Source of the DNA: a virus
Virus record (IMG/VR): IMGVR_UViG_3300021406_000012
Location: 1-64,000 of that record
Direction: 5' to 3' (one strand)
DNA length: 64,000 bases
Made by a program: the position numbers and the translations under genes. Each line of letters opens with the position of its first letter. The stretch's first letter is position 1. Below are positions 314 to 11,259 of the stretch, piece after piece. The notes under the pieces are model-generated. The model was not told the DNA's origin. It saw only the letters and a program-made list of their open reading frames with translations, and made no database searches.

Positions 314-2320
314 TCACGCAGCGGATTTGATAATCGCTAGGAGATCAGCCGGAAGTTGGCGATGGTACTTGAGGACGATCCGGCGACCGAGTACCGCCTG
401 CTTGGCGGTGAGCCGGGGGGACGTGGCCAGCGATTTGCCGACATGCGTATCCATCCGGTTGAAGCCCATGTCATCCAAGCTGGCGGCGCCGTCGCAGATG
501 CCCGCCAGCGCGCGCAGAGCCGCGTGGACGGCCAGGACGGCCTCTGGGCTAATCTTCACCGCCTCCTCGGCTACTTGCGCCTGGGTGACCGCCCTAGTGG
601 CCGGAGGCCCCGCCCTATCGGCCGGGGGAACGTCAACCGGCTCGACGTCTGGGAGCCGTTCCTTGTCGTCGAGGGCCGCGTCGAGGTTGCGCTGCTTCTC
701 GACGAGGATCTCCGCCGCTCTCTGCTCGTAGCTCCCGTCAAGCACAAGATGCTGGATCAGCACTGACTGGTCCTGACCCCTCCTGTGCGCGCGGTCCTCG
801 GCTTGGGTCATATTGCCGGGGACGACATCAAGCTCCCCGAAAACGACGAGCGAGGCGGCAGTCAGCGTGATCGCCACGCCGGCCGCTTTGATCGAGCCGA
901 TAAACAGCGTCTTGGCCGGGTTCGTCTGGAACGCATCCACCTCGGCCATGCGGTCCCGCTGCGCCGTCTCGCCGGTCACCATCACGGAGGCCGCGCCGAA
1001 ATGCGCCTTGAGCGCGTTCGCCACGTCGTGGTGCCAAATCATCACGATCGTCTTGCCCTGGTTCTCAATGCACTCTTCGAGGTGCGTGATCAGCTGGGGA
1101 ATCTTGGCGACCGCGACCTCATGACGAACACGGCTGATCTCGGCGAAGTCCACCGCTGCGGCCTCACGCAGGGCCGCCACGGCGTTCCGATAGTCGGCTG
1201 GGTCCTCTGACGCCTTGGACAGCTCGACGGCCAGCCGTAGGGCTTCCAGGCGCTTCTCGGACGCTGCCTCGGCGGCGCTCTCCCGCGCCAGCGCTTTCTT
1301 GGCGGCGGCGCCCTCGGGGGCGATAACCACGATCTGGCGCCGCTTCGCCGGCAGTTCCTTGAGGACATCGCGCTTAAGGCGGCGAATCATGATCGACGCG
1401 CGAAGCTTCGCCTGTAGCTCATCGAGGTTCGACGCGCCGGACACGTCCCAGCCATAGGAGCCGTGATAGCCCGCGCAGTAGCGCGTCACGAAGCTCTTCC
1501 AATTGGCACCCAGGCCTTTCTTGTCGAGCGCCTGGACGATCGGCCAAAGCTCGATGGGCCGATTGAGGAACGGCGTTCCGCTCAGAAACACCCGGCGCCG
1601 CGCCTTGAGCGGCTCGATCTCCCAGGCGCGCGCCTTCGCGTCCCACTTGCCGAAAACCAGCGAGGTGCGCTGCGCCTTCTTATTTTTCAGGTAGTGAAAT
1701 TCATCCGAGACAAGGATGTCCCACTGGCGCGCACGCAACGCATCGTGATGCTTGCTCAACATTTCATAGTTGATGATCACGACATCTGTCGCCGGAAACG
1801 CGCCATTGGCCACGCCGACAGACATGTCGCGGACCAGCCATTTCTTGGCCTCGCGCTTCCAATTGAGCTTGGGCGTGGCTGGGCAAATGATCAGCACGCT
1901 CTTGATGCTCGGATCGGCGTTGATGATGCCCAGAGCCTCGATCGTTTTGCCGAGTCCCATTTCGTCGCCGATCAGAACGCTCGGGCGATCCATCGCGTAA
2001 GCGACCGCCGCGCGCTGGTACGCGTCAAACTTGCAGCCCTCGGGGGCCGGGATATCAACGTCTGCATCGGCCGCGCGGGAGGCCTCGATCGCCGCTGCAT
2101 CGCGATCGTGCTTGGCTTGGCGTTGCGCGGTGAGGTTCGCCGCTAGCTCGCCGGGGTCCTTCCCTAGCTGGGCCGCGATCTCGGCGCGATCGGTCCACCA
2201 GTGTTTGCGCACCGGATCGAACCGGAATCCGGCGGCCTTAACGAGGTCTTTCGTCGCGTAGTCAAAGGGAAACCGGGCGATGAATTTGCCGCCCTCTTGC
2301 GTGACTGTGATTGCTGACAT
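314..2320 (-). CDS. SNF2-family DEAD/DEAH-type helicase/translocase
   Basis: 668-residue ATPase of the SNF2/SMARCAL1 type that probably moves along or remodels DNA during phage replication or recombination. Visible motifs: I DEMGLGKT (about 119-126), II DEFH (206-209, in place of DEAH), III SGTP (247-250), and the C-terminal RecA lobe ending in RAHRRGQ (about 510-516). The N-terminus ([17 protein letters not shown]) resembles the short DNA-annealing-like segment often fused to such proteins. I place the start at ATG 2320, 5 nt after the stop of the upstream coiled-coil gene, because a longer frame would overlap that gene. It belongs to the leftward early operon. Confidence 0.9.
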
Positions 2321-2325
2321 TTCGG

Positions 2326-2598
2326 TCACCCGTGCCAAAAATGAGTGATGATCGAGGTAATGATCGAGGCTAAGAGCGCCGCTAGAACGCTGCTCGACAG
2401 CAATTGCAGCCAAGGGAACCAGTGGTTCTCGCGATCCAGCTTTCGTAACTCAGCCGCGTACTTGTCAGACTCTTGTTGCAGCTTTCGTGACTCAGCGCGG
2501 TACTTGTCGGACTCTTCCTGCAATTTGCCGGTTTCAGCGATCGCCTTGTAGATCCGAGTCAATTGCTCGGGAATATCAAACGGGGAAGGATCGGCCAT
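2326..2598 (-). CDS. Coiled-coil protein with C-terminal membrane anchor
   Basis: 90 residues. Residues about 25-58 form a heptad-like coiled coil with repeated EESDKYRAE / QESDKYAAE units, so the segment looks internally duplicated. Residues about 67-86 ([20 protein letters not shown]) are a single membrane helix near the C-terminus. This is the layout of a tail-anchored inner-membrane protein. The start ATG follows a strong GGAGTCGAAATCC leader, with its own promoter and hairpin upstream. The gene sits directly before the SNF2-type helicase (5-nt gap), so the two are probably co-translated. Function unknown. Confidence 0.75.
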
Positions 2599-2611
2599 GG
2601 ATTTCGACTCC

Positions 2612-2678
2612 AGAAAGGGAAAACCGGGCGGTAGGCGCCGCCCGGTCCTGATATGGCACTAAACGCAAAAACCGTCAA
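2612..2678 (-). promoter_or_regulatory. Promoter and leader hairpin of the 2598 gene
   Basis: On the minus strand a TTGACG (-35, 2673-2678) is followed after 17 nt by CATATC (-10, 2650-2655). Downstream is a hairpin with arms CGGGCGG / CCGCCCG and a loop holding CCTA, then a pyrimidine-rich stretch and the GGAGTCGA ribosome site at 2604-2611. The same promoter, hairpin with CCTA loop and GGAGTCGA order recurs before the genes starting at 4800, 6669 and 14552. Confidence 0.65.
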
Positions 2679-3013
2679 CCTTGCGACAGTTTTTTCTGCG
2701 CCTCATCCTCAATATATCCCCTCGCGTAGGCCTTGCGCGCGTAACTCAGGGCGCACCGCAGCGTGCAAAACGGCTCGTAAGGCGCGCTCCACGATACGCC
2801 GTCCCAAATATCGCGGCCGGTGACGAGCATGGGCGTGGTCGCGTTTGGCGTCGTCCGATAAGGCGTCGCGGTATTGGTGACGATCCCGTCGCCCTCGTGG
2901 GCGGGCATGGGCTCGCCCTCGGGCCAGCGCACTTGCTCGTACGTGGTGATCCGTTGCCCGTATTTGGCGCCGCAATGGACGCAAACCGGGCGCGGCTTAG
3001 TCGCGGCCTTCAT
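2675..3013 (-). CDS. Small Cys-containing protein, possible zinc site
   Basis: 112 residues. The N-terminus holds CVHCGAKYG and the C-terminal half has CTLRCALSYARKAYARGY, giving two CxxC/CxxxC pairs that could bind zinc (treble-clef-like). The start ATG at 3013 overlaps the stop of the preceding gene (ATGA), which indicates translational coupling. The stop overlaps the -35 element of the promoter for the next gene. I do not recognise the family; small Cys-pair proteins of this kind are common in phage early regions. Confidence 0.7.
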   Translation of the reverse strand: MKAATKPRPVCVHCGAKYGQRITTYEQVRWPEGEPMPAHEGDGIVTNTATPYRTTPNATTPMLVTGRDIWDGVSWSAPYEPFCTLRCALSYARKAYARGYIEDEAQKKLSQG

Positions 3014-3303
3014 CGGATCGATCCCGCCGGGAACTTGAAGCGAACCAGCCAGGACGGGCCGCGCGAGTTGCGCAAGTACGCAAGCGGCTGGATGTGCCGA
3101 TCGGCGACGCCCATGTACTCATGGCGCTCCCACGCGGTTCCTAGAGCGGCCCGCCAGCGGCGTCCGTACACCTTGCGCCACGCCACCATCGCCTCTAGCT
3201 CGACGTCGGTCAGCGGGCGCGTGATGCGCCCCGCCTTGTAGCCGGCCATGTCATCCCAGCGCACGCGGTACGTCAGGCGCGAGGGCGTTCCTTCGTCGCT
3301 CAT
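3010..3303 (-). CDS. Hypothetical protein
   Basis: 97 residues, basic, rich in Trp and Arg (for example RWDDMAGYKAGRITRPL and WRKVYGRRWRAALG). No motif recognised. Its start overlaps the stop of the gene at 3300-3593 and its stop overlaps the next start, so it lies in a tightly coupled leftward run of four small genes behind the ArdC-like gene. Codon use is GC-rich at third positions, which supports real coding. Confidence 0.7.
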   Translation of the reverse strand: MSDEGTPSRLTYRVRWDDMAGYKAGRITRPLTDVELEAMVAWRKVYGRRWRAALGTAWERHEYMGVADRHIQPLAYLRNSRGPSWLVRFKFPAGSIR

Positions 3304-3593
3304 GACAGCGCCTCGTTGCTGACCCAGCTATCGCGCGGCGCCGCCCACTTGGGGTTGCCATGCTGCTCGACAATGCGCTCGATCTTGCGCTGATTCAGCT
3401 CCTCATATTCGGTCTTCGCGATCTCGACCGCCGGATTCGGATAGACGCTCGGGCTGGCGGGTTTCATGCTGAACCCGTAGCTCGTCACGCGGTGCGCGTC
3501 GCACTGAATCCACGCGCTGAGATAGACCCGGCTCTCGCTCCCGCGAAACACCGTGAAGCGACCGTTCGTCGCCTTGAAATAGCGGAGCGGCAT
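3300..3593 (-). CDS. Hypothetical protein
   Basis: 97 residues starting MPLRYFKATNGRFTVFRG, with an N-terminal half that looks beta-rich and a helical tail (EIAKTEYEELNQRKIERIVEQ). I chose ATG 3593 because it overlaps the stop of the upstream gene (TGATG) and because the upstream extension of the frame reads as low-complexity shadow. Function unknown. Confidence 0.7.
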   Translation of the reverse strand: MPLRYFKATNGRFTVFRGSESRVYLSAWIQCDAHRVTSYGFSMKPASPSVYPNPAVEIAKTEYEELNQRKIERIVEQHGNPKWAAPRDSWVSNEALS

Positions 3594-3793
3594 CAGATCA
3601 ACTCCGCATCGGGCGAGCCGCAGGCGGTCCGCGCCTCTTCCAGCGTGGGGTAAATCTCGCCCAGCTGGGGGACATTTCGGCGCAAAAAGCGGATCGGCTG
3701 GAAGCCGTAGGTCTGCGGCACCATCGAGCGCGCAGCCACAGAACCGGGCTGCACATCCCGCACTTGCTGGATGTACCAAACATTCAATTTCAT
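3593..3793 (-). CDS. Hypothetical protein downstream of hammerhead ribozyme
   Basis: 66 residues, MKLNVWYIQQVRDVQPG onward, ending LEEARTACGSPDAELI. The sequence reads like a small alpha/beta protein of unknown function. The ATG at 3793 follows a GGAGTCGAAT leader, and 15 nt further upstream lies a complete hammerhead ribozyme (3809-3869). If the ribozyme cuts, the mRNA for this gene and the three coupled genes after it would begin at 3836. Confidence 0.75.
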   Translation of the reverse strand: MKLNVWYIQQVRDVQPGSVAARSMVPQTYGFQPIRFLRRNVPQLGEIYPTLEEARTACGSPDAELI

Positions 3794-3808
3794 ATTCGAC
3801 TCCTTCGT

Positions 3809-3869
3809 AGGCTCATCAGGCGGCGCATCACGCCGCGAGACGGCGGGACATGCCCGCCGCCTTTCGCCT
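3809..3869 (-). ncRNA. Type II hammerhead ribozyme (copy C)
   Basis: All catalytic-core positions are present on the minus strand. Order of transcription: AGGC (3866-3869), GAAA (3862-3865), stem III of 10 bp (3853-3862 with 3838-3847, 5-nt loop), U then cleavage-site C at 3837, stem I of 6 bp (3831-3836 with 3820-3825, loop 3826-3830), CTGATGA (3813-3819), GCCT (3809-3812) pairing with AGGC as open stem II. Predicted cut is between 3837 and 3836. It starts 4 nt after the stop codon of the ArdC-like gene and ends 15 nt before the next ATG. Confidence 0.93.
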
Positions 3870-3873
3870 TGGT

Positions 3874-4800
3874 TCACGCTGCTAGAAGCGCTGGCGCGCC
3901 CGTGGACGCCTCTTCGTCCGCGTCCGCCTCCTCGGCCGCCGCCGCGCCTCGGAGCCAGTCTACAGCCTTGCTGGCCGCGCTGGCGGCGGTGATGATCGCC
4001 GTTTCCCGCTCTTCGAGCAGCGATACCCAAGTCTCGATGTACGAGGCCGGAGCCTCGCCTAGATCAATGCCCCATTCCGCGCAAATGAACGCGCTGGTTA
4101 GCTCCGCGATCAATTCCTCGGCCGCATAGGTGCGGTCGCCAAACTTGGCCCCATAGGTCCGATTGAGGCGCGAGGGATGCCCGGTGCCGTGGCCAAGCTC
4201 ATGGAACAGCGTGGCATAGTAGGGATGGGCGCCCTTGAACGCCTCAAACGCCGGCATCGCGATGCGGTCGAGCGCGGGCGAATAGCAGGCCCGCGAACCC
4301 TCCTCGACCACGCGAATCTCGGTCGCCTGGACGAAGGCGTCGAGGTCAGCATCGCGCCCGTCCGGATTGACCGGCGCATGCTGGCGCGGCGCGCCAATGC
4401 CCAGGACTGAGTCCGGCAGCCCGTCGCACTGCGCGACGTTGAAAACCGGGTACGCCTTGAGGAAACCAATGCTCTTGTGCTTGTCGGGGTCCTGCCGATC
4501 GCGCACGACCATTTTCTTGACGAAGATCACGGTGAGGCTCTTCTCGCCCGCGCGAACCGTCCCGCCGGCCGCCTTCGCTTGCTTGAACGTGAGCCACCTC
4601 GGACCCCAGCCGTTCGCCTCGGCATGCGACCAGAGCAGGATGACGTTGGCGCCGCTGTAGGCGTGTCCGGTGACCGCGTTGCGCGGCATCACGCTACCAT
4701 GAGCTTGGACGCGCTCGGACCATGGCTTGCGCCACGGCGCAACGCCGGTCTTGAGCATGGCGAGGATTTTGTCAGTGATTTCGCGGTGCATGTCGCGCAT
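3874..4800 (-). CDS. ArdC-like antirestriction / zincin-domain protein
   Basis: 308 residues matching the ArdC layout. The N-terminal single-stranded-DNA-binding domain begins HREITDKILAMLKTGVAPWRKPW and contains the typical GHAYSGANVILLW. A C-terminal metallopeptidase-like domain carries HELGHGTGH (HExxH plus a third His) followed by AAEELIAELTSAFI. ArdC proteins are known from conjugative plasmids and phages, where they help incoming DNA escape restriction. ATG 4800 is chosen because it sits right behind a GGAGTCGAACCCA leader. The Ala/Glu-rich tail is low complexity. A hammerhead ribozyme starts 4 nt after its stop. Confidence 0.9.
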   Translation of the reverse strand: MRDMHREITDKILAMLKTGVAPWRKPWSERVQAHGSVMPRNAVTGHAYSGANVILLWSHAEANGWGPRWLTFKQAKAAGGTVRAGEKSLTVIFVKKMVVRDRQDPDKHKSIGFLKAYPVFNVAQCDGLPDSVLGIGAPRQHAPVNPDGRDADLDAFVQATEIRVVEEGSRACYSPALDRIAMPAFEAFKGAHPYYATLFHELGHGTGHPSRLNRTYGAKFGDRTYAAEELIAELTSAFICAEWGIDLGEAPASYIETWVSLLEERETAIITAASAASKAVDWLRGAAAAEEADADEEASTGAPALLAA

Positions 4801-4879
4801 TGGGTTCGACTCCAAAAAGAAAAAAAGGGCGGGTTAGGCGCCCGCCCTGCTGAGATAGCACGTTTTGCAAAACGGTCAA
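4801..4879 (-). promoter_or_regulatory. Promoter, operator and hairpin leader of the ArdC-like gene
   Basis: Minus strand: TTGACC (4874-4879) and a -10-like TATCTC (4852-4857) 16 nt away. Between them lies TTGCAAAACGTGCTA (4856-4870), a one-mismatch copy of the TTGCA-N5-TGCAA operator. Downstream is a hairpin with arms GGGCGGG / CCCGCCC and a CCTAA-containing loop, followed by a T-rich run that resembles an intrinsic terminator, then the GGAGTCGA ribosome site. A repressor bound here would cover the promoter core. Confidence 0.65.
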
Positions 4880-4899
4880 GATCATAACCGTTTTTATTT

Positions 4900-4968
4900 T
4901 CAGATGCGCCCGCTCGCCATCATGAACAGCGCGAAAGCAAGCGACAGGCCGGTGCAAAGTTCAGCCAC
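4900..4968 (-). CDS. Possible 22-residue membrane peptide
   Basis: A tiny frame starts at GTG 4968, 6 nt after a GGAGG, and overlaps the end of the preceding gene (GTGGCTGA). It encodes MAELCTGLSLAFALFMMASG-RI, which is essentially one hydrophobic helix. The strong ribosome site and coupled start support translation, but the length is too short for certainty. It lies just upstream of the promoter for the ArdC-like gene. Confidence 0.45.
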   Translation of the reverse strand: MAELCTGLSLAFALFMMASGRI

Positions 4969-5245
4969 GGCGCACCTCCGTTAGCCGGATGGCGACTGTC
5001 CCGCCGCGCACAACGCCCTGCCCCGCCTCGCAGCGGTAGACGCCAATTGCAGCCTGGAACGCGCACGGCGCGCACTGCATCAGGAACGAGGATTCGGCCG
5101 CGTCGCCATAGCGGCGGCGCGCGGCAAGGTTGGCGACATGGCGCGCAACCGTGAACGCATCGCCCTCAATCGCCACGGTGCAGAATCGGTCGCTCTCGCG
5201 CGGGTCAGCGGCGAGGTGGACGACATCGGCGGTGAAGCGGGTCAT
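4961..5245 (-). CDS. Hypothetical protein
   Basis: 94 residues starting MTRFTADVVHLAADPRESDRF. It contains SFLMQCAPCAFQAAIG (a CxxC) and a distal Cys, but no family I can name. The start at 5245 leaves 1 nt to the stop of the gene at 5247, so it is part of the coupled run 5863 to 4900. GC-rich third positions support coding. Confidence 0.65.
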   Translation of the reverse strand: MTRFTADVVHLAADPRESDRFCTVAIEGDAFTVARHVANLAARRRYGDAAESSFLMQCAPCAFQAAIGVYRCEAGQGVVRGGTVAIRLTEVRRG

Positions 5246-5246
5246 T

Positions 5247-5465
5247 TTAGCCCACCTCCCCGGCGACGACGATTCCAAGCTCGGCGAGCGACGTCTCGAC
5301 CTGTAGCCGGCAGGCGGCCCGCTCGGCCGATTTGCGCGCGGTGAACGTTTTACCCTCGCGCATCTCGATCTCGCGCCCGTCGCGCAGGAAGAGCGCATAG
5401 CGGCGCTCGCCTTTCGAGGGGTAGCGCGGGTTCAGGTCCGCGTAGACCTTGAGGCGGCACGTCAC
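5247..5465 (-). CDS. Hypothetical protein, GTG start
   Basis: 72 residues, VTCRLKVYADLNPRYPSKGE onward, probably a small beta-rich protein. I chose GTG 5465 because it overlaps the upstream stop (GTGA), the usual junction type in this genome; the longer frame start has no ribosome site. No recognised domain. Confidence 0.65.
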   Translation of the reverse strand: MTCRLKVYADLNPRYPSKGERRYALFLRDGREIEMREGKTFTARKSAERAACRLQVETSLAELGIVVAGEVG

Positions 5466-5863
5466 GAGCGCACCGCCCGCTCGATGTTGCCCCACGGCGC
5501 CTGGGCGTAATCAACGCCCTCGTGCGGCAGGCGCACCTCAAGGTGACCAATCACCCGGCGCGCCTCGGAGGCCTCCCAGGCGTCATGCTCGCAGGCTTGG
5601 TAGGCGTAGCAATCGACGATCTTGCCGGCGGCGCCAGCGGCCAGCGTGAGCGGCTCGAAGCGATAGGCCTCGACGTCCGCCACATAGCGCGCATGCTCTT
5701 CCGCGTGACGCTTGGGCATGGCGTAGCGGTAGGCTACGCTCTTGACGTTCTCTTCCCAGAGCAGGCGCCCCAAAAGGTTCGCCGGCCGGGTTGAGACGCC
5801 CAACTCCAGGGCGATGGTGACGATGGCGTCAATATCGCGCTTGGACACAACAAAAGCAGACAT
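5462..5863 (-). CDS. Conserved small mobile-element protein of unknown function
   Basis: 133 residues. The segment ANLLGRLLWEENVKSVAYRY resembles a motif I associate with hypothetical proteins of phages and plasmids, but I cannot name a function. The start ATG 5863 follows GGAGTCGAATCC. Upstream is a hammerhead ribozyme (5895-5960), so after cleavage this gene would lead an mRNA beginning at 5922. The three following small genes are coupled to it. Confidence 0.75.
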   Translation of the reverse strand: MSAFVVSKRDIDAIVTIALELGVSTRPANLLGRLLWEENVKSVAYRYAMPKRHAEEHARYVADVEAYRFEPLTLAAGAAGKIVDCYAYQACEHDAWEASEARRVIGHLEVRLPHEGVDYAQAPWGNIERAVRS

Positions 5864-5894
5864 GGATTCGACTCCTTCAGATTGGCTGACGGTT

Positions 5895-5960
5895 AGGCTC
5901 ATCAGGCAGCGCCAAACGCTGCGACACAGAGGCCCGCTGGCAGGCCTCCGCGTTTCGCCT
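5895..5960 (-). ncRNA. Type II hammerhead ribozyme (copy B)
   Basis: Minus-strand order: AGGC (5957-5960), GAAA (5953-5956), stem III of 11 bp with two G-U pairs (5943-5953 with 5924-5934, 8-nt loop), U then cleavage-site C at 5923, stem I of 6 bp (5917-5922 with 5906-5911, loop TTTGG), CTGATGA (5899-5905), GCCT (5895-5898) pairing with AGGC. Stem sequences differ from the other two copies but stay complementary. It starts 4 nt after the preceding stop codon. Predicted cut between 5923 and 5922. Confidence 0.94.
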
Positions 5961-5964
5961 TGGG

Positions 5965-6159
5965 TCAGGGGTTCTTGATCAGCTTGCCAGCCGCCAGGAC
6001 GCGCCCATCAGCGAGCACTGTGAATATCGGCGCGTCAGTGTCGCGATCCGGGGTCCACGCCTTGTCGTCGGTGATCCGCCAGTCGGCGAACATGCGCGAG
6101 TAATAGACGAACGCCCCGCCGCGATCGGCGGCCAGCTTGGCGGCTTGCTTTAGTGTCAT
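5965..6159 (-). CDS. Hypothetical protein between two ribozymes
   Basis: 64 residues, MTLKQAAKLAADRGGAFVYY onward, ending LADGRVLAAGKLIKNP. Function unknown. It is the only gene between ribozymes A (6179-6241) and B (5895-5960), so if both cut it would be released as a monocistronic mRNA of about 284 nt with a hairpin at each end. ATG 6159 follows a GGAGTCGAAACG leader, 19 nt after the ribozyme. Confidence 0.75.
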   Translation of the reverse strand: MTLKQAAKLAADRGGAFVYYSRMFADWRITDDKAWTPDRDTDAPIFTVLADGRVLAAGKLIKNP

Positions 6160-6178
6160 CGTTTCGACTCCAGTTGGT

Positions 6179-6241
6179 AGGCTCATCAGTGGCGGCCAAA
6201 CCGCCAGACAGGCGCCGATTCGCTCGGCGCCCGTTTCGCCT
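6179..6241 (-). ncRNA. Type II hammerhead ribozyme (copy A)
   Basis: Minus-strand order: AGGC (6238-6241), GAAA (6234-6237), stem III of 11 bp with one G-U pair (6224-6234 with 6208-6218, loop GCGAA), U then cleavage-site C at 6207, stem I of 6 bp TGGCGG/CCGCCA (6201-6206 with 6190-6195, loop TTTGG), CTGATGA (6183-6189), GCCT (6179-6182) closing open stem II. Every invariant hammerhead core base is present. It begins 3 nt after the preceding stop codon. Predicted cut between 6207 and 6206. Confidence 0.95.
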
Positions 6242-6244
6242 TGG

Positions 6245-6433
6245 TCACTGCCGCTCAAAAGCCAGATAGGCCTGCTTGTGGCTGATGTGCGGGTGCGTCT
6301 TGATGAACTCAGACGCGGCCCACAATTTGCGGTCATAGCGGGACTGGCGCTCGACCGGCCGGTCCGCCAGCGCTACGCGCGCCAGATGGAACAGGTTGGA
6401 CAGTTCCGCCATCTCAGCGTGAGTCAGCATCAC
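6245..6433 (-). CDS. Hypothetical protein
   Basis: 62 residues, MMLTHAEMAELSNLFHLARV onward, helical and basic at the end. The start overlaps the stop of the previous gene by 4 nt. No motif recognised. Its stop lies 3 nt before hammerhead ribozyme A, which would leave its mRNA ending in the 11-bp stem III hairpin after cleavage. Confidence 0.65.
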   Translation of the reverse strand: MMLTHAEMAELSNLFHLARVALADRPVERQSRYDRKLWAASEFIKTHPHISHKQAYLAFERQ

Positions 6434-6669
6434 GCCCTCCCGCGCAGGAGGGCATGAATCCGGCGAGCCTCGGCGTTCGATACGCGAGACGAACGGCGCG
6501 CGCTGGCGATAGCCTTGTCGATCGCAATCTCTTGCTCGCGACGGGCGATGAACCGCTCGGCCGCATTGGACCCAGCGAATCCAGCGACCATCACGCCGCG
6601 ATCAAAAACAAGCCAATCGTGCTCGGCGTGCTCGCTCCACTCGTTAAACTTCATCTCAAAACGGGACAT
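6430..6669 (-). CDS. Hypothetical protein, first gene of the leftward early run
   Basis: 79 residues starting MSRFEMKFNEWSEHAEHDW, with an N-terminal alpha/beta part and a basic helical C-terminus (ASARRSSRVSNAEARRIHALL). Function unknown. The ATG follows GGAGTCGAGATC and is preceded by its own promoter and hairpin. The frame open further upstream is not used because it crosses that promoter. Confidence 0.7.
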   Translation of the reverse strand: MSRFEMKFNEWSEHAEHDWLVFDRGVMVAGFAGSNAAERFIARREQEIAIDKAIASARRSSRVSNAEARRIHALLRGRA

Positions 6670-6744
6670 GATCTCGACTCCTTTTTCGGGCGCCGTAGGC
6701 CAGCGCCTGTCCTCCAAATAGTGGGTTGGGATACACGCTGTCAA
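6670..6744 (-). promoter_or_regulatory. Early leftward promoter and leader hairpin
   Basis: Consensus -35 TTGACA (6739-6744) and -10 TATTTG (6715-6720), 18-nt spacer, minus strand. A hairpin with arms GGCGC / GCGCC and a CCTAC-containing loop follows, then an A-rich stretch and GGAGTCGAGATC before ATG 6669. This is the best -35 match in the early region, so it probably drives the run 6669 to at least 4900. Confidence 0.65.
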
Positions 6745-6886
6745 GCTTTTTCGGTCGCCATCGTGACGATATTTTGCGGCCGCTCTCGACTCCTTATTAC
6801 ATTGTCCCCAGCCAGTGTCCCGATGACCCCCCATAAACCGCGCCTTTGCGGCGACCATGTCCCGCTAAGTGTCCCGCGTTTGTCCC

Positions 6887-6915
6887 AAGCGTGTCATGCA
6901 GTCTCGGACACGCTT
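6887..6915. repeat. 9-bp inverted repeat
   Basis: AAGCGTGTC (6887-6895) and its perfect complement GACACGCTT (6907-6915) are separated by 11 nt. It lies inside the TGTCCC-rich non-coding stretch. It could be a protein-binding site or a hairpin; there is no T-run to make it a terminator. Confidence 0.7.
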
Positions 6916-7044
6916 AAATAGGCGGGACTGAGGCGGGACAAGCCAGGGACAAACGCTCCAAAGCCACAAAACTCGGTAGGCGTTTAAATCAATTTGGAGG
7001 CCCACTGGCTGGGGTCTATGAAAATCGGCCGTAGGACACTGGCG

Positions 7045-7059
7045 TTGCACGTTTTGCAA
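7045..7059. promoter_or_regulatory. Operator TTGCACGTTTTGCAA
   Basis: Exact copy of the TTGCA-N5-TGCAA palindrome in non-coding DNA. Its right half and spacer nearly match the copy at 4856-4870. No clear promoter is visible directly beside it, so the controlled gene is uncertain. Confidence 0.65.
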
Positions 7060-7161
7060 GTCCACGGTGCGTCCAATCGATTCTAGGGGTCGTTTCCGAA
7101 ATTGGTCAATTTTCAGAATTTCATGGCATGAAAAGCAGAAGGCGGTGAGAAAGACAGAAGT

Positions 7162-7890
7162 TTACACCCTGCGGACCTCTGCTAAGTCATTGATATTTGA
7201 ATTTTGCGGCAAGTCGGATGTCGGCTTATCGCTGGAATATCCGAAACGCATCTCGAAGAACGCTTGCGATTCCAGTAACTTACGGTGCGTGCGCCTTTGG
7301 CGAGCGAGTTCATAGCGGAAAGCTTGCCGAGTGAGGGGGAAAAGTAGCGGCCCTATCACGACCGGCATCTGCCAACGCTCTCGCACGCAAGGCGCTCGCC
7401 AGCGCTTTGCCCCGCGCAGCCAGTGCCGCCATTGCGACTCGATCACGCATGGTTTGCGCCAGACCGGCCGGACAGAAACGATTGGCTGGAATCTGCGTCC
7501 GTGACCCAATGTCGCCAGATAGGCGACAGCGCTCCACCTGACCCGCTCGCGAGCAATCAATCGCGCATGCGCCAGCGGCTCGATGCTGTCGGCAAGGCCT
7601 CGACCAAGCTCTCGCAACTCAGCCGGCGACCATGGCGTCGAATCGAGGACATGGCGCCACCGCGAGATCAGCGCCCGGTTCACATAGGCCGCTCGCGCCT
7701 CGAAGTCGTATGGATGCCGGTCGCCAGCGATCCCGTTGCACTCGCCGCAGGAAGGCAGCAGCCAACCGCGCACGCGATCCACCGCGTAAGGCGGGAAATG
7801 ATCCCAACAGGTGGCGCGCTCGCCGCAATAGACGCATCGCTCGCCGATCACTCGGATGCGCTCGCCCACCTCGTTTTGCCGGTTTGCCAT
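7162..7890 (-). CDS. HNH-like endonuclease
   Basis: 242 residues. The N-terminal 60 residues hold CVYCGERATCWDHFPPYAV followed by CGECN, the CxxC-DH-CxxC pattern of HNH/zinc-finger nucleases. The long basic, Arg/Trp-rich remainder has no motif I recognise and could bind DNA. An exact operator palindrome sits only 3 nt upstream of the ATG, so expression is probably repressed tightly. The ribosome site is weak (AAGG next to the ATG). It stands alone between the early run and the non-coding region. Confidence 0.75.
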   Translation of the reverse strand: MANRQNEVGERIRVIGERCVYCGERATCWDHFPPYAVDRVRGWLLPSCGECNGIAGDRHPYDFEARAAYVNRALISRWRHVLDSTPWSPAELRELGRGLADSIEPLAHARLIARERVRWSAVAYLATLGHGRRFQPIVSVRPVWRKPCVIESQWRHWLRGAKRWRAPCVRERWQMPVVIGPLLFPLTRQAFRYELARQRRTHRKLLESQAFFEMRFGYSSDKPTSDLPQNSNINDLAEVRRV

Positions 7891-9725: not shown

Positions 9726-11259
9726 TTTGGTGAATTTCGTGGAGGAGGCGTGGCCGATCTTGGAGCCGCGCATGCCGTTTGTGAAGGGACCGCTGGTCGA
9801 GGCGATTTGCGAGCACCTCGAAGCGGTGACGGCGGGGATGATCACGCGGTTGCTGATCAATGTTCCGCCTGGGAGCGCGAAGAGCCTGCTTGTGTCGGTG
9901 CTGTGGCCGGCGTGGGAGTGGGGGCCCCGGGGTCTGACCAGCTATCGGTACATCAGTTCGAGCTTTGCGGAGAGCGCGTGCGTTCGCGATGTGCGGAAGA
10001 TGCGGCTCCTCGTCACCAGCGATTGGTATGTTCGGCATTGGCCGCACGTTGAGCTGACCCGGGGCGGCGAATTAAGTTTTGAGAACACATTGACCGGGAC
10101 GCGGGACGGGGTTGCGTTCAGCTCGCTGACCTCGCGGCGCGGCGATCGGCTGATCCTCGACGACCCGCACAGTGTTGAGAAGGCGGAAAGCCCGAACGAC
10201 CGGGAGAAGGCGACGCGGCGGTTTCGGGAGAGCGCGGTGAATCGTCTGAACGATCAGGCGAAGAGCGCGATCGTTGTGGTGATGCAACGGCTGCACGAGG
10301 CGGACATCAGCGGGGTCATCCAGGAGTTTATGCCCGACTACGTCCAGCTGGTGCTGCCGATGGAGTACGAGAGCGGGCGCCATTGCGAGACGGAGATCGG
10401 TTTTTCGGATTGGCGGCGGAGCGAGGGCGAGCTGCTCTTTCCGCAGCGCTGGGGGCGCCAGGAGGTTGAGAACCTCAAACGCGACATGGACAAATGGGCT
10501 TACGCCGGCCAGTACCAGCAAAGGCCCGCGCCGCGAGGGGGCGGGCTGTTCCCCTACACCGGCTGGGAGCTTTGGCATCGCGGGGTTGCGCTGACCTATG
10601 GGCGCAACGAGTCGCAATATCCGGACTTCGACATGATCGTGGGCTCGCTGGATTCGGCCTACGGGACGAAGCAGGAGAACGACTATTCGGCGTTCATCGT
10701 TTTAGGGATTTGGACCAACCATTTCGGGGTTCAACAGGCCATGCTGATGGCTTGCTGGCAAAAGCGGCTGGCGTTGAACGAGCTGGTCGAGGAAGTGATC
10801 AAGAAGTGCCGCACATTGAAGGTCGATCGGCTGCTGATCGAGCTGAAGGCGAGCGGGATCTCGGTGGCGCAGGAAATTCAGCGGCTGACGCGGGACGAGG
10901 AGTTCGCGATCCAGCGGATCGATCCGGGCAACATGGACAAGGTGAGTCGGGGGCACGCGCTGTCGCATCTGTGGGGCGAGGAGCAGGCCGACGGCTCGTT
11001 TCGCAAGGGGGTGGTTTGGGCGCCTGGGCAGACCCAGCCGAACGGGGCGGTTTGGCCTCGCGACTGGGCTGAGCTGTGCATGTCGCAGTGCGCGTCGTTT
11101 CCGAAGGGGAAGCACGACGACATCGTGGATGCGCTGTGTCAGGCGCTGAAGTTTTGCCGGGAGCGCGGGTTGCTGAAGAAGTCGGCCGAGGTCCAGGCCG
11201 AGGAGTACGCGGAGCTGCTACAGTCGCCTTTGCCGCCTATGCCGTTGTACCCGGTCTGA
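9601..11259 (+). CDS. terL: Terminase large subunit (ATPase-nuclease)
   Basis: 552 residues. The packaging motor shows Walker A NVPPGSAKSLL (about 87-97), Walker B RLILDDP (about 183-189) and an RNase H-like nuclease with GSLDSAYGTK and HDDIVDAL. Together these identify a phage terminase that pumps DNA into the prohead and cuts it. Start: TTG 9598 or ATG 9601 are both possible, as is MEASASV at 9676; all overlap terS. I use ATG 9601 because LPSHEAIVAELMRREL looks like genuine protein. Confidence 0.95.
   Translation: MPRSNLPSHEAIVAELMRRELGISSMEASASVSTVRERCRNSLVNFVEEAWPILEPRMPFVKGPLVEAICEHLEAVTAGMITRLLINVPPGSAKSLLVSVLWPAWEWGPRGLTSYRYISSSFAESACVRDVRKMRLLVTSDWYVRHWPHVELTRGGELSFENTLTGTRDGVAFSSLTSRRGDRLILDDPHSVEKAESPNDREKATRRFRESAVNRLNDQAKSAIVVVMQRLHEADISGVIQEFMPDYVQLVLPMEYESGRHCETEIGFSDWRRSEGELLFPQRWGRQEVENLKRDMDKWAYAGQYQQRPAPRGGGLFPYTGWELWHRGVALTYGRNESQYPDFDMIVGSLDSAYGTKQENDYSAFIVLGIWTNHFGVQQAMLMACWQKRLALNELVEEVIKKCRTLKVDRLLIELKASGISVAQEIQRLTRDEEFAIQRIDPGNMDKVSRGHALSHLWGEEQADGSFRKGVVWAPGQTQPNGAVWPRDWAELCMSQCASFPKGKHDDIVDALCQALKFCRERGLLKKSAEVQAEEYAELLQSPLPPMPLYPV

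Follow-up and report, generated by a model that had tools for sequence, protein, structure and literature searches.

In 2011, multiple hammerhead ribozymes were reported to flank prophage genes, and arrayed prophage copies were found to cleave in vitro (PMC3088659). A triple located beside ardA cleaves both in vitro and in E. coli (PMC3088659). The stretch of viral DNA analyzed here (64,000 nucleotides, hereafter the window, part of the 77,961-bp IMG/VR virus record IMGVR_UViG_3300021406_000012) carries three elements on its minus strand, at 6241–6179, 5960–5895 and 3869–3809, which are real, complete type II hammerhead ribozymes. They share with the type II prophage hammerheads the open-stem-II permutation, the CUGAUGA/GAAA core, the U-C cleavage site and the closed stems I and III (RF02276; PMC3088659); in both settings several copies flank small phage genes and an anti-restriction gene lies nearby, ardA there and ardC here. 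Since multi-copy prophage arrangements, including the active ardA triple, have been published, the set in the window is an addition to a known kind. The phage group to which the window belongs nevertheless differs from the known type II ribozymes: stem II is a near-invariant 4-bp helix (AGGC or GGGC with GCCT), almost every stem I carries a G-U-NNN-G-C cap, and stem III is long, with a median of 26 nt.

Architecture and identity of the three ribozymes

Each copy reads, in order, AGGC, GAAA, stem III, the cleavage-site C, stem I, CTGATGA and GCCT, with stem II open and stems I and III closed by loops, which is the arrangement that distinguishes type II. U16.1 precedes C17 in all three copies, and the cleavage site of copy 3 reads CUC rather than GUC. 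The invariant hammerhead core (CUGANGA...GAAA and U16.1-H17, where H is not G) is present in all three window copies and in 26/26 copies of the phage group, where the three helices and the covariation expected of hammerheads are also found. The copies are composed as follows; the scores are those of the Rfam model RF02276 and of the held-out covariance model described below.

6241–6179, minus strand: copy 1, type II hammerhead (RF02276 33.2 bits; held-out model 58.9 bits, E 1.1e-16); stem II AGGC/GCCT 6241–6238 and 6182–6179, GAA 6237–6235, stem III 6234–6208, C17 6207, stem I 6206–6190, CTGATGA 6189–6183
5960–5895, minus strand: copy 2, type II hammerhead (RF02276 21.8 bits; held-out model 59.4 bits, E 7.7e-17); stem III of 14 contiguous pairs, C17 5923, stem I 5922–5906, CTGATGA 5905–5899
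3869–3809, minus strand: copy 3, type II hammerhead (RF02276 23.0 bits; held-out model 62.6 bits, E 6.8e-18); stem III of 10 bp, C17 3837, stem I 3836–3820, CTGATGA 3819–3813

On re-reading the sequence, the three ranges agree exactly with those of an earlier note on this DNA, and its cleavage-site C17 positions (6207, 5923 and 3837, with U before each), type II assignment and full complement of invariant core bases are borne out by the sequence, the stems and the held-out model. The note had given stem III as 10–11 bp throughout, and this needs correction, the contiguous pairs numbering 11, 14 and 10 in copies 1, 2 and 3. Its 6-bp stem I is present as six Watson-Crick pairs, to which a U·G pair can be added; equally, the stem can be read as having 6 bp closed by a UNNNG loop of 5 nt.

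The pattern AGGCGAAA-N(30-60)-CTGATGAGCCT occurs three times in the window, compared with 0.00 expected, and a descriptor requiring both core and stems finds only these three copies within the 64 kb. At its strict setting, the descriptor gave no finds across 60 simulated windows, and no further hammerhead copies were found in the remainder of the record. When the Rfam Hammerhead_II model (RF02276) was run on the minus strand, as the earlier note had proposed, all three copies were matched at an E-value threshold, none of them at the gathering score of 37 bits, which is a curated cut-off and not a defining structural feature; an Rfam search of the window at the gathering threshold found nothing. 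The E-values (3e-4 to 0.29) are scaled up for 4227 families and are thus small for a single family, and in the relative L229 one copy reaches gathering with 39.3 bits. A covariance model trained on 33 other sequences, with the window copies and a near-identical twin excluded, scores the three copies at 58.9–62.6 bits (E 1.1e-16 to 6.8e-18, roughly calibrated), with the next match in the window at 11.2 bits. Background-level covariance scores for all three copies, named by the earlier note as the outcome that would speak against it, were not seen, and the held-out model leaves no doubt about hammerhead identity despite the Rfam scores.

Covariation and recurrence in related phages

From the phage group, 26 distinct copies were gathered by core sequence and ribosome-binding motif only, without any requirement for stems, and all 26 fold, with the core invariant and the stems intact. 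Covariation was assessed on the 24 group copies of equal stem I length, the three from the window among them. Here 98.6% of 432 cells are paired, compared with 79.2% in shuffled sequences and at most 49.0% when partners are slid, 11 of the 18 pairs have changed on both sides (compensatory), and the covariation score of 0.512 compares with 0.137 in shuffles and no more than 0.101 when partners are slid. When stem halves are exchanged between sequences, pairing in stems I and III falls from 98.2% to 73%. The earlier note had argued covariation of stems I and III from three copies, and because of these pairing, score and half-exchange results the argument is sound. For stem II, covariation is seen only in a wider set whose rows were picked by pairing. 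For the isolated element, folding prediction gives the hammerhead as the minimum-energy structure in 22/25 cases, and the mean predicted hairpin energies in the group are -18.7 kcal/mol for stem III and -10.6 kcal/mol for stem I.

ArdC-bearing relatives carry one to five hammerheads each, all on the coding strand and confined to one and the same region of a few kilobases; of the ten relative records checked, two have no hammerhead by pattern. A DNA search of the region against named phages returned weak ardC matches only. Beyond the group, the hammerhead pattern is found in at least 119 stretches of IMG/VR; among the matches listed, 95 of 126 fold, compared with 5% of shuffled bodies. Matches to the pattern in genome contigs were set aside as probable chance matches, only 18 of 100 of them folding. 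Two or more copies are present at no fewer than 31 IMG/VR loci, all on one strand in 31/31. The largest array, in L101 (IMGVR_UViG_3300047317_000073, a 45-kb contig), places 12 type II hammerheads on one strand within 5.6 kb (1651–7239), in most gene gaps of the operon and mostly one or two genes apart, and L114, L096, L085, L044 and L004 hold seven hammerheads each. Three copies in one operon, which the earlier note considered striking, are indeed present here, but given the multi-copy loci and the triple reported in 2011 (PMC3088659) they are not exceptional. The existence of arrays with as many as 12 copies suggests that, in some phages, the majority of the genes in an operon rely on self-cleavage.

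Genomic position and probable cleavage between genes

The ribozymes of the window start 3–4 nt past a stop codon and end 15–31 nt before a start codon that is preceded by GGAGTCGA. The same placement on the coding strand, with the stop of an open reading frame (ORF) just upstream and a ribosome-binding site and start codon just downstream, is observed for 23/23 group copies, and for 73% of 204 copies from all sources compared with 9% of random positions. The features surrounding the three copies are:

6245–6430, minus strand: 61-aa ORF, no family match; its TGA stop (6247–6245) lies 3 nt before copy 1
6163–6171, minus strand: GGAGTCGAA ribosome-binding motif following copy 1; start codon at 6159
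5965–6159, minus strand: 64-aa ORF between copies 1 and 2, no family match; its TGA stop (5967–5965) lies 4 nt before copy 2
5867–5875, minus strand: GGAGTCGAA ribosome-binding motif following copy 2; start codon at 5863
5462–5863, minus strand: 133-aa ORF following copy 2, no family match; conserved in L220, L221 and L226
4826–4887, minus strand: putative promoter-like site (TTGACC...) and leader hairpin (GCCTA loop, then a T run) upstream of ardC, as read from the sequence
3874–4800, minus strand: ardC-like anti-restriction gene (ArdcN, MPTase-PolyVal); its stop (3876–3874) lies 4 nt before copy 3
3795–3803, minus strand: GGAGTCGAA ribosome-binding motif following copy 3; start codon at 3793
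3593–3793, minus strand: 66-aa ORF following copy 3, no family match

The ardC-like gene, with copy 3 directly downstream, matches PF08401 (E 2e-34), PF18818 (E 7e-41) and phrog_7245 (anti-restriction). The neighborhood further comprises small ORFs without known families and a SNF2-type helicase, while the terminase large subunit is encoded on the opposite strand from about 9.6 kb. This gene content (ArdC anti-restriction, SNF2 helicase) fits the early operon assumed in the earlier note, and it is from the content that we infer early status.

The slot upstream of ardC has an identical promoter-like and leader layout in the relatives. Promoter-like sites recur on the minus strand of the window at 4848–4826, about 2640, about 6700 and about 14580, and in the same slots in L220–L230; they are followed by a short hairpin with a GCCTA loop and sometimes a T run (attenuator-like) before GGAGTCGA. 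GCCTA is also terminal in the group hammerheads, and possibly it serves as a recognition motif shared with the leader hairpins. Two more conserved hairpins are located before GGAGTCGA: GGCCATGCKCGTC...CGMGCATGACCGGACGATCG, which shows a compensatory stem change (L222 6916–6979; L225 and L229 7411–7469), and TGCCAGCGYGCGCGCCTC...GCGGGCA, downstream of the helicase gene (L225 about 10215–10270, L226, L229, L230).

The sequence, structure, covariation, position, strand and recurrence seen in the data make it likely that these genuine hammerheads cut the polycistronic transcript between genes and leave hairpin-capped mRNAs with gene-by-gene stability and expression. Cleavage would be co-transcriptional and protein-free, after C6207, C5923 and C3837. 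All three cuts would lie past one gene's stop codon and ahead of the next gene's ribosome-binding site, so the genes would be parted with their coding sequences undamaged. Hammerhead cleavage yields a 2',3'-cyclic phosphate and a 5'-OH. As the cut in type II is flanked by two closed hairpins, stem III on one side and stem I on the other, the upstream mRNA would end in the stem III hairpin with the cyclic phosphate, and the downstream mRNA would begin with the stem I hairpin and the 5'-OH, about 40–60 nt ahead of the start codon. Both new ends bear hairpins in type II, which is not the case in types I and III; the strong hairpins at both type II ends therefore favor intercistronic cutting that would produce capped mRNAs.

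The argument from capping is our own, and the benefit to stability that the hairpins would bring to each gene is drawn by analogy with two systems. At the T7 RNase III sites, hairpins in early-operon gaps cut polycistronic mRNA into hairpin-ended pieces. The window elements are likewise hairpin elements in phage operon gaps that are predicted to cut mRNA, however, the T7 sites need host RNase III and give 5'-phosphate ends, whereas hammerheads cut themselves and give the ends described above. RiboJ is a synthetic insulator that combines the sTRSV hammerhead with a hairpin, and mRNA cleaved by it starts with a defined leader. It resembles the window elements in placing a hammerhead just upstream of a ribosome-binding site, but it is engineered and of another permutation, whereas the window elements are natural type II ribozymes. 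Processing of long phage transcripts into operon- or gene-length mRNAs has been proposed by Perreault et al. (PMC3088659). A further possibility, that cleavage unmasks the ribosome-binding site, is not supported in its simple form, as predicted accessibility shows no consistent change (mean 0.37 uncut and 0.43 cut).

Several observations weigh against intercistronic cleavage by these elements. All three window copies, like most copies of the phage group, score below RF02276 gathering. In relatives, the slot after ardC holds a hammerhead, a different element (E, described below) or neither, and since copies come and go no single copy is essential. A pseudoknot between loop I and the tail, typical of the type II majority and not required, is not enriched in the group (at least 4 bp in 12% of copies compared with 13% of swapped controls), in contrast to other type II copies (50% compared with 19%), and cleavage could thus be slow at cellular magnesium. 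The pseudoknot was rejected as the tertiary contact at the level of the group; within the window, copy 1 alone could form a loop I–tail pairing (UUGG/CCAA). As G-U-NNN-G-C caps stem I in 24/24 aligned group copies and stem II is invariably followed by A, one may speculate that another contact replaces the pseudoknot. In copy 2, finally, the tail CGUCAG (5892–5887) can sequester the core in a fold predicted to be 1.2 kcal/mol better than the hammerhead.

The last observation bears on a regulated version of these ribozymes, in which pairing of the 3' tail (CGUCAG or CAUCAG) with CUGAUG of the core switches the ribozyme off and makes cleavage conditional. We regard this as rather unlikely. In about half of the group copies, copy 2 included, the predicted tail fold is 1–4 kcal/mol better than the hammerhead, tails complementary to the core over at least 5 bp occur in 12% of all copies and in 1.6% of shuffled tails, and TCAG lies between ribozyme and ribosome-binding site in 7/25 cases compared with 0/53 before GGAGTCGA sites that have no ribozyme. 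The tail statistics, however, include shared descent of the tails, and the pairing is missing in copies 1 and 3. Moreover, because the core is made before the tail, cleavage can precede the pairing, which may exist only in the product; by folding prediction, the core-pairing tail is possibly either an off-switch or a product trap. With no enrichment of the pseudoknot and with tails that can pair with the core, how fast cleavage would run at cellular magnesium is the principal uncertainty in the proposed cutting between genes.

Exchange of elements between genes and its implications

Some pairwise alignments of window and relatives put distant blocks in the wrong place, and the comparison was therefore restricted to the slot downstream of ardC in L220, which is aligned on its two sides. 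It reveals that the genes flanking copy 3 are nearly identical and that the hammerhead is cleanly replaced by a 60-nt element, E (AACGCGAGCGGGACGGCGTCGAGCRATCGTCGCCGCCTCGCGGGCGCTCTTGCCCG; L220 4537–4596). Element E, about 60 nt long, is also present in L021, L026, L043/L221, L223/L280, L227/L279 and L228/L281, and it is near-invariant across these seven viral contigs. The flanking gene pairs differ, and in each case E follows a stop codon and precedes GGAGTCGA. It has no Rfam match, is not found in INPHARED phages and is absent from the window's own record. In L225 (5461–5550), and likewise in L229 and L224, the first 15 nt of E run straight into hammerhead flanking sequence, a junction that resembles a scar left when one element took the place of the other. 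With low probability, the interval from stop codon to ribosome-binding site might in this phage group be a general socket for interchangeable RNA-processing elements, among them the hammerheads and the undescribed E; E in turn might be a processing site or a new ribozyme that cleaves itself.

The exchange could alternatively mean that the elements act mainly as DNA, their conserved ends AGGCGAAAC, CTGATGAGCCT and GGAGTCGA offering short homologies for the shuffling of gene cassettes, with ribozyme activity incidental. Such a role would fit the loss of homology between window and L220 precisely at the copy 2 core (5905), the exchange of copy 3 for E between the same two genes, and the joined elements in L224, L225 and L229. 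Stems I and III, however, vary and yet stay paired, which selection for DNA homology would not need, and their divergence is the opposite of the conservation expected at a recombination site; we consider this explanation improbable. That the elements are passive selfish or decaying motifs of no benefit to the phage is very improbable: their presence is patchy among close relatives, and self-cleaving ribozymes are common in selfish elements (Perreault et al., PMC3088659), but position and strand are strict, and core and stems are preserved in every one of the 26 group copies. Cleavage followed by ligation, giving circular or spliced RNAs of a gene that two copies enclose, would suit the one small gene flanked by copies 1 and 2 and can practically be dismissed, since some relatives have a single copy and Perreault et al. 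sought such products and found none (PMC3088659).

Cutting of the transcript between genes is thus the reading we retain, and the role of phage hammerheads is a question standing since 2011. The ribozymes of the present group occupy defined slots, are present in some and missing from others of a set of near-identical genomes, and can give way to another element between the same genes, and their regular reuse in related phages (one to five copies, and up to 12 elsewhere) makes the role testable. The value of the locus lies in element E and in these natural pairs, with and without a ribozyme or with one element swapped for the other, which could test whether the cuts alter mRNA stability, gene dosage, or nothing.

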